Origin: Janthinobacterium sp. B9-8
GTDB lineage: Bacteria > Pseudomonadota > Gammaproteobacteria > Burkholderiales > Chitinibacteraceae
Direction: 5' to 3'
DNA length: 64,000 nucleotides
Assembly (NCBI RefSeq): GCF_000969645.2
Contig: NZ_CP014222.1
Span: 1,863,740 to 1,927,739 of the forward strand
Shown here: positions 2,116-8,414 of the stretch, one piece after another
Position numbering within the stretch: the first letter of the stretch is position 1
Layout of the letters: each line of letters starts with the position of its first letter
Made by a program: the position numbers and the translations under genes
Notes under the pieces: model-generated
Seen by the model: the letters and a program-made list of their open reading frames with translations, nothing else
The model's database searches: none
Told to the model about the DNA's origin: nothing

Positions 2116-3519
2116 ATGCTTCGCTACTTTTCCTTTCGCACACTCTTAATTATCGGCTTTGCACTGGTGGCGCTCACCCCGTCGGCTGCGCTGGTGCAAC
2201 TGCGTTATGGCTTAGCTGGGCTAACCATCAAGGCGCAACAGCAACAAAATCAGGCCAGCGATTGGTCTAATGCAGTGCAACAATCGCAAGAGCAAGCGCT
2301 GCATCTGGAGCGGGCCAGCAGGCAATTATTAATTTTGCCAGAGGCTACTTTTTTAAATGCAGCCCACGCTGCCAAAGCCCGCTTGGAAACCGCACAGCAT
2401 ATTTTCAGCCAAAGCCATAACCCACTCCTGATGCAAAGCAGCGAAGGCATCCACCAACTGCTGGCACAGATCACCCCCACGGCAAAGATCAAAAAAGCGC
2501 AAGCGAATGCCCTCTTCAGCCAGCTCAGTGAGCAGCTAAAAAAACAAGATCGTTTGATTGAGCAGCAATTAGCAGAACAACGCCGGCAATGGCTGGAAGA
2601 AGTCAGCAGCAAGCAAAAACAAGTCGATATGCTGGCGATTTTGTCGCCCGTTGCCGCGCTTAGCTTGGCTATTTTAATGGCGGTAATGTTCAGTTGGCCC
2701 ATAGGACAGTTAAAACGCCAGATTACCCAGCTGGCACAAGGACAACGCGGGCAAAGCTGGCACTTGGCAGGCCCTGCCGATTTACAAGGATTAGCCAAAT
2801 CGCTGGCCGAATTAGATTTACGTCTGGTACAGCTGGAGGCACAAAAAGCGCAATTTTTTCGCCATGTATCACACGAGCTCAAAACCCCGCTGGCGGTGAT
2901 TCATGAAGCCTCATCGCTGCTGCAAGAAGAAGTACTGGGCAGCTTAAATACCCAGCAAAAAGAAATCAGCGCGATGGTGCAAAGCAATGTGCATACCCTG
3001 CGCCAACGCGTGGATGCACTATTAGCACACGATGCGGGACGCTGGCTTTCAGCCGAACTGGTCATTGCGCCTTTGGCGCTTGAGGTGTTTCTAGAGCAAC
3101 GCTTACAACAATGGCGCATTTTACTCAGCAAGAAACTTCTGACTATCCATCAATCCGGCCCAGCCACGCAAAGCTATGCCGATCACGCCAAGCTGGGGAT
3201 TATTCTGGATAACTTGCTTCTCAACGCTATCCGCTTTAGTCCACCCCATGGCGAAATAAATATCCGCTTTGGGCAAACGGGCCAGCAAAGCTGGCTGGAA
3301 ATCCAAGATCAAGGCCCCGGCGTAGACAGCCAGGATTCAGAGTTTATTTTTGAACCGTTTCACTGTGGCCCAGCGCCCGAAGGCGAATCCGCTGGCTCTG
3401 GCATAGGCCTGACAATGGCCAGAAGTTTTGCCCAGCTTATGCACGGCGATGTTGAGCTGATACCCAGCCCGGCAGGCGCATGTTTTCGTTTGCACTGGCA
3501 GCTACAAGGTCACTCATGA
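2116..3519 (+). CDS. glrK: Sensor histidine kinase of the GlrK (QseE) type
   Basis: The 467-residue inner-membrane sensor kinase has a first membrane segment at about residues 8-30, a helical periplasmic region, a second membrane segment near 175-195 and a HAMP-like linker. The HisKA box is FRHVSHELKTPL with the phosphorylated His at about residue 253. It is followed by an ATPase domain with N box (DNLLLNAI), G1 (DQGPGVD) and G2 (GSGIGL). The order kinase, small lipoprotein, sigma-54 response regulator is that of glrK-qseG-glrR in enterobacteria, where GlrK phosphorylates GlrR under envelope-related conditions. The gene ends in ATGA, the remains of an overlap with a downstream start. The last 95 bases are repeated at 3630-3724. 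Confidence 0.88.
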   Translation: MLRYFSFRTLLIIGFALVALTPSAALVQLRYGLAGLTIKAQQQQNQASDWSNAVQQSQEQALHLERASRQLLILPEATFLNAAHAAKARLETAQHIFSQSHNPLLMQSSEGIHQLLAQITPTAKIKKAQANALFSQLSEQLKKQDRLIEQQLAEQRRQWLEEVSSKQKQVDMLAILSPVAALSLAILMAVMFSWPIGQLKRQITQLAQGQRGQSWHLAGPADLQGLAKSLAELDLRLVQLEAQKAQFFRHVSHELKTPLAVIHEASSLLQEEVLGSLNTQQKEISAMVQSNVHTLRQRVDALLAHDAGRWLSAELVIAPLALEVFLEQRLQQWRILLSKKLLTIHQSGPATQSYADHAKLGIILDNLLLNAIRFSPPHGEINIRFGQTGQQSWLEIQDQGPGVDSQDSEFIFEPFHCGPAPEGESAGSGIGLTMARSFAQLMHGDVELIPSPAGACFRLHWQLQGHS

Positions 3520-3629: not shown

Positions 3630-3724
3630 GTTTTGCTCAACTTATGCACGGCGATGTTGAACTAATACCCAGCCCGGCAGACGCCTATTTTCGTCTGCAC
3701 TGGCAGCGACAAGGTCACCTATGA
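3630..3724 (+). pseudogene. Duplicated 3' end of the sensor kinase gene
   Basis: Bases 3630-3724 match 3425-3519, the 3' end of glrK, with no gaps and about 84 of 95 positions identical by my count. The copy still reads as the end of a kinase in one frame (FAQLMHGDVELIPSP and on to a stop) and is open upstream to about 3590, but it has no kinase start. Several differences are silent third-position changes, so the copy either diverged under constraint or came from a related allele. It supplies the ribosome binding site (aagg) and ATGA start context of the following lipoprotein gene. The 100 bases between the copies have no clear function. Confidence 0.75.
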
Positions 3725-4221
3725 AAGACATACTTTGCACCATGCCCCTAAAACAACTCTGCCTATTACTGTGCAGCATCAGCCTAGCCGCCTGCACTAC
3801 TACCCTGCCACCGCCTGTTGTCGCGGCACCTGCGCCTGAACCAGAAGCCAAACCGGTCGTTATTGCGCCAGTATGCCGCCTTGAAAGTGCTCTGGCGCAA
3901 TTAAACAACACCATTTCGGGCAATTGCCCCAGCGATAAGCTGCTGATACTAGCGCAGCAAATGATGAGCAATCATGCCGATCTGAACCGCCTTCAGGCTC
4001 AGCTGGAAGCACTGCAAAACACGCTGAATGATCCGGCCAGCCAGAGCATGGCCAAACTATTAGCCAGCCAGCTTGCCGAGCGAAAACGGCTGACCAGCTT
4101 GCTGGATAAGCAAACGATCGCCACCAAAGAGCAGCAAAAGCGCGCCAATGATCTGGCCGCCAAGCTGGATGCCTTAAAAGAAATGGAAAAAGACATGCTG
4201 GAAAGGAGCAAAAAACCATGA
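3721..4221 (+). CDS. qseG: QseG-like outer-membrane lipoprotein of the Glr system
   Basis: A 166-residue small lipoprotein. The signal peptide ends in the lipobox SLAAC, so the Cys at residue 25 becomes the lipidated first residue. A short proline-rich stretch follows, and then a long helical region (about residues 75-160) rich in Leu, Gln, Glu and Lys that should form a coiled coil. The position between the GlrK and GlrR genes is that of qseG (yfhG), whose product helps activate GlrK in Escherichia coli by direct contact. Sequence similarity to QseG is weak to the eye, so the name rests mainly on context. The ATG at 3721 has an AAGG site; the ATG at 3742 does not. The end overlaps glrR by 4 bases. 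Confidence 0.75.
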   Translation: MKDILCTMPLKQLCLLLCSISLAACTTTLPPPVVAAPAPEPEAKPVVIAPVCRLESALAQLNNTISGNCPSDKLLILAQQMMSNHADLNRLQAQLEALQNTLNDPASQSMAKLLASQLAERKRLTSLLDKQTIATKEQQKRANDLAAKLDALKEMEKDMLERSKKP

Positions 4222-5567
4222 GTAGCAAAATCTTACTGGTTGACGATGATCCGGATCTCTTACGCTTGGTTTCCATCCGCCTGATTGCCGCAGGCTATGA
4301 AGTAGAAGCCGCCAGCAGTGCCGAAGCTGCTCTTAATGCGCTCGCCGTGCAACGCGCCGATCTGCTGCTTAGCGATTGGAAGCTGCCCGGCATGGATGGC
4401 ATGGCGCTATTTGAAGAAGTGCGCCGTCGCTACCCCGCCCTGCCGGTCATTATGCTCACCGCCCACGGCACTGTGCCAGACGCCATTGATGCCATTAGCC
4501 ACGGCATGTTCGCCTATTTAATTAAGCCTTTTGATGGCAAGGCCCTGCTAGATAAAGTCAGCCAGGCTTTGGTCTTAGCCAGCCCCCCCAGCAACAGCAG
4601 TGATAACGACACCTGGCGGGCAGGGTTTATCAGCAGCAGCCCCGTGATGGACGAGCTACTGGCCGAAGCGCGGCTGGTGGCCGTTACCGATGCCAGTGTG
4701 CTGATTCGCGGCGAAAGCGGTACGGGTAAAGAAGTGCTGGCCCAAGCCATACACCGCGCCAGCCTGCGCGCCAAGCGCCCCTTTATCGCCGTAAATTGCG
4801 GTGCAATCCCTGAAAACCTGCTGGAAAGCGAGCTTTTCGGCCATGAAAAAGGCGCGTTTACCGGAGCCAGCCAAAAACAAAATGGTTTATTTTTAGAAGC
4901 CGATGGCGGAACGATTTTCCTCGATGAAATTGGCGATATGCCGCTGCCACTGCAAGTCAAATTGCTGCGGGTGCTGCAAGAGCGCGAAGTGCGCCCGGTT
5001 GGTGCGGGCCGCGCCGTGCCGGTAAATGTGCGCGTGCTATCGGCCACGCACCGTGATTTGCAATCCTTGCTACAGGACGGCTCGTTTAGAGAAGATTTGT
5101 TTTATCGCCTGAATGTGGTGTCTTTAGCACTACCATCGCTCACCGAGCGGCGAGAAGATATTCCACTACTGGCCCGGCACTTTTTAGCGCAGGTAGTGGA
5201 GCGCTATGCCAAGACCGATTGCCACTTTGCCGCCGACGCGCTCAGCTTTTTAAGCACCGCCAACTGGCCGGGCAATATTCGCCAGCTCTCTAATCTGGTT
5301 GAGCAATGCTGTGTGCTCGCCACCGGCCCCATCATCACGCTGGCCCAGGTGCAAAAAGCAATGGCCAGCGAATCGGCCGCCATCTTGCCACTCGCTGAAG
5401 CCAAACGCCTCTTTGAGCGCGATTATCTGGAACGCCTGCTACGCCTCACTGGCGGCAATGTCAGCGACGCCGCACGCCTTGCCGATCGCAACCGCACCGA
5501 ATTCTACCGCCTGCTACAAAAACACGACCTTGCCCCCGCCGCTTTTAAAGCAGATATCAGCGCCTAA
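4218..5567 (+). CDS. glrR: Sigma-54-dependent response regulator of the GlrR (QseF) type
   Basis: A 449-residue bacterial enhancer-binding protein. Residues 1-120 are a receiver domain with the acidic pocket VDDDPD, the phosphorylated Asp53 (LLLSDWKLPG) and the Lys in IKPFDG. Residues about 140-370 are the AAA+ domain with Walker A GESGTGKE, the sigma-54 contact loop GAFTGA, Walker B FLDEIGDM and arginine fingers. A short Fis-type helix-turn-helix lies at the end (NVSDAARLADRNRTEFYRLL). It starts on the ATGA overlap with the lipoprotein gene, so translation is coupled. GlrR binds TGTC-N10-GACA upstream of RpoN promoters in enterobacteria; two such sites lie just downstream of this gene. Confidence 0.92.
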   Translation: MSSKILLVDDDPDLLRLVSIRLIAAGYEVEAASSAEAALNALAVQRADLLLSDWKLPGMDGMALFEEVRRRYPALPVIMLTAHGTVPDAIDAISHGMFAYLIKPFDGKALLDKVSQALVLASPPSNSSDNDTWRAGFISSSPVMDELLAEARLVAVTDASVLIRGESGTGKEVLAQAIHRASLRAKRPFIAVNCGAIPENLLESELFGHEKGAFTGASQKQNGLFLEADGGTIFLDEIGDMPLPLQVKLLRVLQEREVRPVGAGRAVPVNVRVLSATHRDLQSLLQDGSFREDLFYRLNVVSLALPSLTERREDIPLLARHFLAQVVERYAKTDCHFAADALSFLSTANWPGNIRQLSNLVEQCCVLATGPIITLAQVQKAMASESAAILPLAEAKRLFERDYLERLLRLTGGNVSDAARLADRNRTEFYRLLQKHDLAPAAFKADISA

Positions 5568-5830: not shown

Positions 5831-5848
5831 TGTCGTGTTTTAGCAACA
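5831..5848 (+). promoter_or_regulatory. Possible second, weaker GlrR site
   Basis: TGTC-N10-AACA, one base from the GlrR consensus. It lies 64 bases before the perfect site at 5895. The same 64-base spacing to a more degenerate version (CGTC-N10-AACG at 6733-6750) is found in the second promoter region, which suggests an ancestral pair of sites. Confidence 0.45.
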
Positions 5849-5894: not shown

Positions 5895-5912
5895 TGTCGT
5901 GAGACGGCGACA
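5895..5912 (+). promoter_or_regulatory. GlrR binding site, perfect TGTC-N10-GACA
   Basis: TGTC at 5895-5898 and GACA at 5909-5912 with exactly ten bases between. This is the published consensus for GlrR in enterobacteria. It lies 82 bases before the -24 element at 5977, a normal upstream-activator distance, and 330 bases after the glrR gene. Confidence 0.75.
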
Positions 5913-5976
5913 GATACAAATCCTCCCCACTCAACACACAAAAAGTAAGTCGTTGAATACAAAGGACTTTTAAAGC

Positions 5977-5992
5977 TGGCACGGTGTTTGCT
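5977..5992 (+). promoter_or_regulatory. Sigma-54 (RpoN) promoter
   Basis: TGGCAC-N5-TTGCT with GG at -24 and GC at -12, a full match to the RpoN consensus. It points at the repeat-protein gene starting at 6052, leaving a leader of roughly 45-50 bases. Confidence 0.85.
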
Positions 5993-6007
5993 ATAGGTAG
6001 TACATCG

Positions 6008-6021
6008 AACGAGAAATCGTT
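6008..6021 (+). other. Conserved leader hairpin with GAAA loop
   Basis: AACGA-GAAA-TCGTT forms a five-base-pair stem closed by a GNRA tetraloop in the predicted leader. An identical 14-base element sits at 6907-6920 in the second leader while the bases around it have diverged, so it may be an RNA stability or regulatory element. Confidence 0.5.
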
Positions 6022-6051
6022 TATCCGATTACCCACGCAAGGAAACACACC

Positions 6052-6510
6052 ATGAAAAAGAATCTACTGATCGCCGCCCTTTTTGCAACTTGCGCTGCAA
6101 CTGCAGCTTGGGCTAGCTCCACAGATGCTTCTGCTCCTGCAAGTTTACGTGCTGATGCCAATGATGCTTCCGTCCCTAGCCGTGTTGTAGCCAATGTAAC
6201 TGATGCTTCCGAACCAGCAGGTTTACGTGCTGATGCCAATGATGCTTCTGTTCCTGCCAGTGTGGTAGCTGAAGCCACTGATGCTTCTACACCAAGCAGC
6301 CTGCGCGCTGATGCCAATGATGCATCCGTACCGACCAGCATCGTAGCCGATGCAACGGATGCTTCTGTACCAAGTAGCCTGCGTGCAGATGCCAATGACG
6401 CATCCGTACCAAGCAGCATTGTTGCCACTGCAACAGATGCCTCTGCCCCTGCTGGCTTAGTAGCCGATGCCTCAGATGCTTCTGCTCCGGCAAGTGCAAA
6501 GATCGTTTAA
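6052..6510 (+). CDS. Secreted protein built of ten 13-residue DAS repeats
   Basis: I do not recognise this 152-residue protein. Residues 1-21 are a clean Sec signal peptide (MKKNLLIAALF start, AWA cleavage region). From residue 25 almost to the end it consists of 13-residue units beginning DAS-x-P. Two kinds alternate: one ends LRADAN, the other VVAxAT or IVAxAT. Five pairs make ten units, the last one shortened. The mature protein has no Cys and no aromatic residues and is rich in Asp, Ala and Ser, so it should be acidic and extended or solenoid-like, in the periplasm or outside. It follows a sigma-54 promoter with a GlrR site, has an AAGGA ribosome site and ends at a strong terminator. A role in the envelope is a guess. 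Confidence 0.85.
   Translation: MKKNLLIAALFATCAATAAWASSTDASAPASLRADANDASVPSRVVANVTDASEPAGLRADANDASVPASVVAEATDASTPSSLRADANDASVPTSIVADATDASVPSSLRADANDASVPSSIVATATDASAPAGLVADASDASAPASAKIV
6124..6507 (+). repeat. 39-bp tandem repeats inside the DAS-repeat gene
   Basis: Ten 39-bp units code for the 13-residue repeats, arranged as a 78-bp two-unit period. Some copies are nearly identical in DNA (for example around GCTGATGCCAATGATGC), others have drifted. The array could gain or lose copies by slippage or recombination, so length differences between strains are expected. Confidence 0.85.
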
Positions 6511-6536: not shown

Positions 6537-6568
6537 AAAAAAACCACGACGAGAGTCGTGGTTTTTTT
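6537..6568 (+). terminator. Rho-independent terminator of the DAS-repeat gene
   Basis: AACCACGAC and GTCGTGGTT form a stem over a GAGA loop, flanked by an A tract and seven T residues, so it can act in both directions. It resembles the terminator after the next gene (7228-7257). Confidence 0.9.
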
Positions 6569-6796: not shown

Positions 6797-6814
6797 TGTC
6801 GTGCAATAGAGACA
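6797..6814 (+). promoter_or_regulatory. GlrR binding site, perfect TGTC-N10-GACA
   Basis: TGTC at 6797-6800 and GACA at 6811-6814 with ten bases between, as at 5895-5912. It lies 80 bases before the -24 element at 6877. The ten inner bases differ from the first site apart from the leading GTG, so only the palindrome arms are kept. Confidence 0.75.
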
Positions 6815-6876
6815 GTAAATCACCGTCCCCCCACCAAAACAACACTAATCCATTGAATAGAAAGAGATTTATTATC

Positions 6877-6892
6877 TGGCACAGCACTTGCT
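6877..6892 (+). promoter_or_regulatory. Sigma-54 (RpoN) promoter
   Basis: TGGCAC-N5-TTGCT, again with GG/GC at -24/-12 and the same outer bases as at 5977-5992. It serves the small gene at 6955. The rest of the gap after the previous terminator (6569-6730) shows nothing recognisable. Confidence 0.85.
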
Positions 6893-6954: not shown

Positions 6955-7212
6955 ATGAAAAAGTATCTACTGATTGCATCCATGATTGCCAGTTTCGCGG
7001 CTACTTCTGCCTGGGCAGATATTTCCAAATGGGTGGATAACTCAGATATCCCTAAGGTTGCAGAAATGCATGCCGATGCACGAAGCACCACGCCGCCGGA
7101 TATGATGACCGACACGCCAAGAAAACCCAATCAGGCAGACGATGCTTCAGCCCCCACTAGCACTGATCCTATCCCTTCATCCCCACTAGATGATGATGGT
7201 TTCGGTGATTAA
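6955..7212 (+). CDS. Small secreted protein, paralog of the DAS-repeat protein by its 5' end
   Basis: An 85-residue protein of unknown function. The start at 6955 is chosen because it follows an AAGGA ribosome site and the leader and first codons (MKKYLLIAS) align with those of the DAS-repeat gene; the frame is open further upstream but that stretch is the promoter. The signal peptide ends at AWA. The mature part is short, acidic and proline-rich, contains one relic-like unit (DDASAPTS) and ends in DDDGFGD. The promoter, operator, leader and signal peptide are shared with 6052-6510, but the repeat array is missing. It either lost its repeats or shows the state before they expanded. Confidence 0.8.
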   Translation: MKKYLLIASMIASFAATSAWADISKWVDNSDIPKVAEMHADARSTTPPDMMTDTPRKPNQADDASAPTSTDPIPSSPLDDDGFGD

Positions 7213-7527: not shown

Positions 7528-7899
7528 ATGAAAAAATTACTCATCGCCCTGCTGCTCGGAACATCAGGCCTAAGCTATGCAAACTCTGCTTGCGATGTAC
7601 CAAAAAATGATTTTGACGGCCTGTATTGCCTGAATAAGGTTTATCAGGAGGCGGATAAAGAGCTCAATGAGAATTTTAATAAATTAAAAGCAAAGCTCGA
7701 TAGCAATGGCAAAAGCAGCTTAAAACAAGGCCAATTAGGCTGGATGAAAGAGCGCAATAGTAATTGCTCCAGAAAAGACAGCAGCGGCTTTTACGTTAAT
7801 CTGGATTGCGCCGCCAGCACCACCATCCAGCGCTCACAATTTCTGCAAGACCGAATTCGCGAATGTGCCAGCTCGGGCTGCCAAAATAGCAAGCTATAA
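7528..7899 (+). CDS. LprI-like (DUF1311) secreted protein
   Basis: A 123-residue protein with a Sec signal peptide (MKKLLIALLLG, cleavage near SYA). The mature part fits the lysozyme-inhibitor LprI N-terminal/DUF1311 family: CDVPKNDFDGLYCLNKVYQEAD, an ADKELNENFNKL helix and the typical GQLGWMKERNSNC segment. Six Cys residues in the mature chain should form disulphides. Some family members inhibit lysozyme; most are uncharacterised. I start at 7528, where an AAGGA site precedes the ATG and a signal peptide begins, not at the in-frame ATG at 7459. No sigma-54 promoter like the two upstream genes is seen. Confidence 0.82.
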   Translation: MKKLLIALLLGTSGLSYANSACDVPKNDFDGLYCLNKVYQEADKELNENFNKLKAKLDSNGKSSLKQGQLGWMKERNSNCSRKDSSGFYVNLDCAASTTIQRSQFLQDRIRECASSGCQNSKL

Positions 7900-7925: not shown

Positions 7926-8414
7926 ATGGCACTTGTTATTAAAAAATGGTACGCAAGCCACACGGCTAACCCTCAGGGCAATTATGTGCATCTCGTTGGC
8001 CGGGAAGCGGGCTTATTTGCTTGGTTTTTATCTCTAATCGGTATTGACCCCACAACAGAAATTGAAATTAAAGAAAACTTAATCGTATTTACTGCTGGCT
8101 CACTATCCGGCAGAGAAAAGCGTGTGATACCGATGAAATCAGTATGTTCTGCTTATTATGGTTACAAAAAGCCTTGGCAAACCGCTCTGTTAATTGGCAT
8201 TTTATTACTGCCTCTTTTTGGAATAGGCCTGATAGCAGGGCCTTTATACTATTTTTTAAATAAAGAGCTGACTGTTGGAATAGTTGAAACATCGAGCTGG
8301 GTGGGTGGATTTGCTTTTAAACGCTCGGTAATCGAAGGACAAAATATTGAAGAGCAAAATGCCTATGAAGTCATAGATATTATTCGCTCTTTGATTGAAA
8401 ACAAAACAGCCTAA
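7926..8414 (+). CDS. Hypothetical membrane protein
   Basis: A 162-residue protein that I do not recognise. A soluble N-terminal part (residues 1-75) with beta-strand character precedes one long hydrophobic stretch, ALLIGILLLPLFGIGLIAG, at about residues 80-105, which can make one or two membrane passes. A short C-terminal soluble part is rich in Glu and ends in a helix. The arrangement recalls small membrane proteins with a bacterial PH-like domain, but no motif proves it. An AAAGG site precedes the ATG. It begins 26 bases after the LprI-like gene, so the two may share a transcript. Confidence 0.7.
   Translation: MALVIKKWYASHTANPQGNYVHLVGREAGLFAWFLSLIGIDPTTEIEIKENLIVFTAGSLSGREKRVIPMKSVCSAYYGYKKPWQTALLIGILLLPLFGIGLIAGPLYYFLNKELTVGIVETSSWVGGFAFKRSVIEGQNIEEQNAYEVIDIIRSLIENKTA

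Follow-up and report, generated by a model that had tools for sequence, protein, structure and literature searches.

The window, a stretch of 64,000 nucleotides from an Iodobacter genome (4.73 Mb, single contig), contains a gene for a small exported protein composed of tandem 13-residue units that begin with the residues DAS. This DAS gene is situated downstream of an operon resembling glrK-qseG-glrR. The coding features of the region are as follows:

2116 to 3519, forward strand: GlrK/QseE-like sensor kinase with HisKA and HATPase_c domains
3721 to 4221, forward strand: lipoprotein with lipobox LAAC, called QseG-like solely from its position and this lipobox
4218 to 5567, forward strand: GlrR/QseF-like sigma-54 response regulator, named after its best NCBIfam model (GlrR, NF011695) at 590 bits, which falls below the 763-bit equivalog cut-off of that model
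6052 to 6510, forward strand: DAS-repeat protein, 152 amino acids (open reading frame with orthologues in 9/9 Iodobacter genomes; pairwise dN/dS 0.05–0.27)
6052 to 6114, forward strand: Sec signal peptide of 21 residues, MKKNLLIAALFATCAATAAWA, with signal peptidase I-type cleavage between AWA and SS, nearly invariant across nine species
6124 to 6474, forward strand: nine tandem 13-residue units, DASxPx(S/G)(L/I/V)(R/V)A(D/E)A(N/T) (from this sequence and orthologue units)
6475 to 6507, forward strand: last unit, 11 residues, DASAPASAKIV (from this sequence; orthologues end similarly)

The mature DAS protein has 131 amino acids and a mass of 12.4 kDa; it consists of the residues SST, nine 13-mers, and the 11-residue last unit. 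Its units follow the consensus DASxPxS[LIV][RV]AxAx and fall into two types, DASxPxxLRADAN and DASxPxx(V/I)VAxxT, which alternate strictly through units 1 to 8. Units 1, 3, 5, and 7 end in LRADAN; units 2, 4, 6, and 8 end in VVANVT, VVAEAT, IVADAT, and IVATAT, respectively; and unit 9 ends in LVADAS. The initial annotation, which was made from the sequence alone, had described ten units of 13 residues with alternating LRADAN and VVAxAT endings. Nine of these units are full length but the tenth is shorter, and the alternation is present in units 1 to 8 with a VVAxAT ending that is only approximate. The repeat protein itself is real, given that the open reading frame is present and that the self-identity of the mature chain (53% at a lag of 13 residues and 73% at a lag of 26) is far above 30%, the top value over all lags when the mature part was shuffled 2000 times with its composition preserved. 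The chain is strongly acidic, with a pI of 4.05 and a net charge of −12. As annotated, it lacks Cys and aromatic residues; the signal peptide carries one Cys, one Phe, and one Trp. An antisense open reading frame at 6021 to 6428 (135 amino acids) mirrors the repeats and was not taken as a gene.

The signal peptide and its A-W-A cleavage site are kept in all nine orthologues, which supports the earlier proposal that the protein is secreted. Export is predicted to occur via Sec, with the periplasm, the surface, or the medium as candidate destinations. A lipoprotein reading was rejected because Thr precedes the Cys in most species (F-A-T-C at positions 11–14) and because the AxA site is kept in all. 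A lipobox with Ala, Gly, or Ser before the Cys is not seen overall; two species carry F-A-A-C.

The DAS gene is present in 9/9 Iodobacter genomes and in 0/34 further genomes of its family. Its orthologues range from 85 to 165 residues, and the comparison of copy number that had been proposed at the outset reveals that the number of units differs widely among the nine species. The 54 full units of the orthologues conform to D-A-S-x-P-x-(S/G)-(L/I/V)-(R/V/I)-A-(D/E)-A-(N/T), where D1, S3, and A10 never vary and A2, P5, and A12 rarely do. The orthologues likewise lack Cys, and two of them contain one or two aromatic or His residues. Because the units of two species (G003 and G005) are all of the R-containing type, alternation of the two types is not essential. 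For the mature part, pairwise dN/dS values are 0.05–0.27 where computable, and where units within a gene differ in a codon, the change is mostly at the third position. Aligning repeats tends to keep amino acid changes to a minimum, which makes these counts approximate, but a synonymous divergence of ∼0.6 against ∼0.15 is clear nonetheless. Judged by these substitution patterns, the DAS repeat protein is under purifying selection.

The initial annotation knew of no family with this pattern, and database searches bear this out. For the DAS protein, nothing scored above the cut-off in Pfam (best 15.3 bits; cut-off 23) or NCBIfam (best 16.2 bits; cut-off 256), the BON domain (PF04972) was not matched, a PDB sequence search gave no match beyond sub-threshold ones, and no match was found among phage sequences. 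A profile search across the phylum recovered only compositional look-alikes outside Iodobacter. Two such candidates were rejected as relatives: L121, with a TolA-like KAEEARLKA repeat, and L122, with an LptA-like signal peptide, resemble the DAS protein in composition only. The single plasmid match (Paenibacillus, 35% identity) is similarly weak. Among open-licence papers, no report of the DAS protein or of a betaproteobacterial GlrR regulon was found. By these sequence comparisons, the DAS protein is an orphan family confined to Iodobacter among the genomes searched.

The DAS gene is preceded by the parts of a sigma-54 promoter and followed by a terminator:

5831 to 5848, forward strand: second, distal UAS-like site TGTCGTGTTTTAGCAACA (TGTN12ACA; consensus from PMC6075780), 64 bp upstream of the main UAS
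5895 to 5912, forward strand: GlrR/QseF-type UAS TGTCGTGAGACGGCGACA, TGTCN10GACA (motif search, genus conservation)
5946 to 5958, forward strand: IHF-like site TAAGTCGTTGAAT, matching 8/9 defined positions, 31 bp before the sigma-54 element
5977 to 5992, forward strand: sigma-54 −24/−12 promoter TGGCACGGTGTTTGCT, TGGCACN5TTGCT (motif search, genus conservation)
6007 to 6022, forward strand: 5′-UTR stem-loop GAACGA-GAAA-TCGTTT (fold z = −2.5; compensatory changes)
6039 to 6045, forward strand: ribosome-binding site AAGGAAA (from the sequence; an AAGGAA-type site appears in the promoter alignment)
6537 to 6568, forward strand: intrinsic terminator with stem CCACGAC/GTCGTGG and seven T residues (from the sequence)

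The promoter block of UAS, IHF-like site, and sigma-54 element is kept across the genus (nine species). The sigma-54 element conforms to TGGCA(C/T)N5TTGCT in 9/9 species, and the UAS is degenerate in G003 and G005, where it begins with CGTC rather than TGTC. Single matches to the IHF-like site are weak (shuffle p of 0 to 0.15), and it is the fixed position of the site that constitutes the evidence; its TTGAATA sequence is invariant in 14 aligned promoters. The 5′-UTR stem-loop is paired in 94% of cells across species, with three pairs showing compensatory double changes. An equivalent CCACGA stem and T run lie 3′ of the DAS gene in every one of the nine species.

Orthologues of glrR are found in 9/9 Iodobacter genomes, and the DAS gene is directly downstream of glrR in eight of the nine species. 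In the exception, G001, glrR lies ∼676 kb away, yet the DAS gene retains the complete promoter module, which therefore is not a by-product of adjacency. In E. coli, QseF governs envelope homeostasis and acts from TGTN12ACA sites with help from IHF at the sigma-54 promoters of glmY and rpoE (PMC6075780). By analogy with QseF, the promoter indicates that the DAS gene is a predicted GlrR/sigma-54 target. The earlier suggestion of control by an envelope-linked two-component system is supported by the GlrK-QseG-GlrR-like operon upstream and by the putative GlrR-type UAS, IHF-like site, and sigma-54 promoter.

A UAS and a sigma-54 element are combined at only two places in this genome, the DAS gene and a second gene of the same promoter architecture:

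6797 to 6814, forward strand: UAS TGTCGTGCAATAGAGACA of the second gene (motif search, promoter alignment)
6846 to 6858, forward strand: IHF-like site TAATCCATTGAAT of the second gene (motif search)
6877 to 6892, forward strand: sigma-54 promoter TGGCACAGCACTTGCT of the second gene (motif search, promoter alignment)
6955 to 7212, forward strand: second exported gene, 85 amino acids, with one DASAP unit and the same type of signal peptide, in 5/9 Iodobacter genomes

Most copies of the second gene have one DASAP unit. A plausible origin for the pair is that a short exported D/A/S/P-rich peptide in the position after glrR was duplicated, and that one copy expanded its units within Iodobacter. Two further genes follow in the window. 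An LprI-family (PF07007) small exported protein is encoded at 7531 to 7896 (46 bits) and is also found near the repeat gene in G002, G006, and G007. The adjacent gene at 7926 to 8414 encodes a putative membrane protein of 162 amino acids with no Pfam match, and adjoins the LprI-like gene in G006 as well.

The slot after glrR was surveyed in the other genera of the family that have glrR. Its first gene encodes an exported BON-domain protein in genera g3, g6, g7, and g10 (PF04972 matches of up to 71 bits) and an exported D/A/S/P/T-rich peptide of 42–48 amino acids in g2 and g11 (L082, L084–L087); no slot protein was identified at L083. Across the order, the UAS plus sigma-54 pattern is found in 33 of 399 genomes, compared with none for a reversed control pattern. 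A GlrR orthologue (57–69% identity) is encoded directly upstream at eight of these loci (L090, L091, L093, L103, L104, L105, L107, and L118), where the targets are small BON, glycine-zipper, EF-hand, or acidic exported proteins. Beyond this family, glrR orthologues of several Burkholderiales families are thus followed by the GlrR-type architecture, with targets that include short disordered exported proteins. In nearly every promoter of this class, the IHF-like site lies 31–32 bp before the sigma-54 element. The UAS lies either 62–66 or 74–75 bp before that element, and the two distances differ by one turn of the helix. This spacing is absent from promoters that adjoin other activators. Loci L098–L101, L106, L109–L111, L116, and L117 were rejected as GlrR sites because they lack an IHF-like site at 31–32 bp, and several of them adjoin other sigma-54 activators with 35–44% identity to GlrR. 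Together, the promoter and synteny patterns predict a betaproteobacterial GlrR regulon of small exported proteins.

Several other loci were noted during this survey. Bactofilin-like genes lie behind a UAS, IHF-like site, and sigma-54 promoter at L102 and L113, and a GlrK-like kinase (34% identity) is encoded upstream at L102; GlrR may control bactofilins in some Burkholderiales. Exported Ala/Pro/Gln-rich proteins of 66–68 amino acids lie behind a GlrR-type promoter at L094 and L096, in genomes of genus g85 of family f27. These genomes have a second GlrR-type promoter, which in G288 precedes a BON gene. At L097, two tandem exported proteins of 51–52 amino acids, with the sequence ...QSAxxCQKxHAGDHAKIQACIDGLKK, share one GlrR-type promoter. 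FAD oxidoreductase (sulfide:quinone reductase-like) genes at L109, L110, and L111 have a different inverted-repeat UAS with a sigma-54 promoter and adjoin another sigma-54 activator (38–44% identity to GlrR).

Our favored reading, which we consider about evenly balanced between right and wrong, is that the DAS protein is a small, acidic, Sec-exported end effector of the GlrK-QseG-GlrR envelope-stress response and is Iodobacter's own occupant of this slot. An envelope signal would activate GlrK with the assistance of QseG, and phospho-GlrR would bind the UAS at 5895 to 5912 and probably also the site at 5831 to 5848. With IHF bending the DNA at 5946 to 5958, sigma-54 polymerase would start at 5977 to 5992. 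Such induction is inferred from the known GlrR system, whereas the promoter parts and their conservation, like the signal peptide, the repeats, and the purifying selection, are read from the sequence itself. The 5′-UTR hairpin would stabilize the short mRNA, and signal peptidase I would free the 131-residue polyanionic chain into the periplasm. There, the chain might act by mass and multivalency as a soluble protectant or chaperone-like filler, and so would fill a regulon slot that is held in related genera by BON (OsmY-like) or other small envelope proteins. It is only from these other occupants of the slot that we infer that the protein resides in the periplasm and has a protective or chaperone-like function. 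A shared promoter slot does not prove a shared function, because the DAS protein has no homology to the targets of other genera.

The fold of the repeats bears on a different possibility. Two AlphaFold runs with different orthologues gave a mean pLDDT of ∼50 and pTM values of 0.42–0.45, with no residue reaching 70, and both of these low-confidence models place a short strand over (L/I/V)xAxA in nearly every unit. The chain may be disordered or may form one short beta-strand per unit, with the models leaning weakly toward the strand. In nearly all of the 54 units, positions 8, 10, and 12 are L/I/V, A, and A, whereas polar or mixed residues predominate at positions 9, 11, and 13, and this amphipathic alternation slightly favors a beta-repeat. 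The low model confidence, the acidity, and the Pro, Ala, and Ser content favor disorder. If each unit formed a strand followed by a DASxP turn, then the A/B alternation of unit types, with its period of 26, could build a two-faced rung of 26 residues, and the protein could form a beta-solenoid or amyloid-like fiber in the envelope or matrix. The first model aligned in VIA-align with CAP beta-helix domains at Z values of up to 8.5, which is within reach of unrelated models. However, no PDB structure was matched by Foldseek at E ≤ 0.001, VIA-align matched the second model to nothing at Z ≥ 2, and curli-type secretion or nucleator genes were not seen beside the DAS gene. We regard such a polymer as unlikely. 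A broader proposal is that the protein represents a new exported beta-repeat class (13 residues per strand-turn, 26 per rung) that polymerizes on or coats the envelope at the command of GlrR, within a GlrR regulon, as yet undescribed in betaproteobacteria, whose small exported proteins change fast and are encoded beside glrR; this we judge distinctly unlikely.

Other explanations assign the gene a different product or purpose. Antifreeze proteins recurrently show a short-repeat, Ala/Ser/Thr-rich exported design, which the DAS protein shares. An ice-binding or anti-recrystallization function in cold-living Iodobacter would also accord with the heat-labile inhibition of ice recrystallization by a lysate of Iodobacter sp. 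PCH194, from which the responsible protein has not been isolated (PMC9298515). However, the repeats do not array TxT motifs into an ice face (S, R/V, D/E, and N/T occupy the outward-facing positions of the strand), the PCH194 activity is constitutive whereas the DAS promoter is activator-dependent, and the authors of that study propose adhesins (PMC9298515), all of which makes this function very improbable. Somewhat easier to entertain, but still quite improbable, is a ligand that serves the GlrK-QseG sensor in a feedback or accessory capacity and that, in the manner of CpxP and CpxA, would be induced by GlrR, accumulate in the periplasm, and tune the kinase. The location of the gene immediately 3′ of glrR in 8/9 species fits this idea, as does the fact that periplasmic contact between QseG and QseE is the control point in E. 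coli (PMC6075780). The unlinked gene in G001 does not, and wide variation in repeat number together with unrelated targets elsewhere would be unusual for a specific ligand. The near-identical units behind a signal peptide and their varying copy number also recall a tandem precursor, which by the logic of the yeast alpha-factor precursor would be cut into 13-residue extracellular peptides. This is extremely improbable: a conserved processing site is lacking, one unit type alone carries the only basic residue, the units are constrained over their entire length, and no peptidase or receptor gene adjoins. Finally, the transcript might work mainly as a small RNA like enterobacterial GlmY, with the repeat open reading frame being incidental, given that glmY has the same GlrR/sigma-54 promoter logic and that the transcript is short, with a 5′ hairpin and a strong terminator. 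However, no Rfam family scored above its gathering score, and a relaxed threshold yielded nothing but sub-threshold sRNA matches, located at the terminators. The dN/dS values and the third-codon-position bias indicate selection on the protein and leave this explanation hardly credible.

In the favored reading, an orphan repeat family would be the effector of a known system, GlrR regulation. In enterobacteria, the known regulatory outputs of GlrKR (QseEGF) are two, GlmY and sigma-E. Here, the GlrR promoter logic appears to lead directly to structural proteins of the envelope in several families of betaproteobacteria. A single slot filled by unrelated small exported proteins offers a testable route to the role of GlrKR outside enterobacteria. 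The DAS protein also makes up a clean orphan family, and a few standard experiments could establish its fold and its role.

Comparison with known systems places the DAS protein among other small exported proteins. It shares with the BON proteins of sister genera (OsmY type, PF04972) the slot after glrR, the promoter architecture, small size, and export, but it has tandem repeats and no folded domain, and neither a BON match nor sequence similarity links the two. The 42- to 48-residue peptides of g2 and g11 have the same slot, a sigma-54 promoter, a signal peptide, and a short D/A/S/P-rich mature part; unlike the DAS protein, they lack tandem repeats, and they are too short to test for homology. 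Curli CsgA and other functional amyloids are likewise exported short-repeat proteins, possibly with one strand per unit in common, although the DAS protein has a low-confidence fold and is without their sequence similarity, Gly/Gln/Asn pattern, or curli-like neighbors. The closest parallel in regulation is the E. coli QseEGF/GlrKR system, which has the same TGTN12ACA sites, IHF assistance (here an IHF-like site), sigma-54 promoter, glrK-qseG-glrR synteny, and envelope context. In E. coli, however, the targets are a sigma factor and an sRNA, and glmY lies ahead of the operon, whereas the predicted Iodobacter target is an exported repeat protein encoded downstream of glrR.
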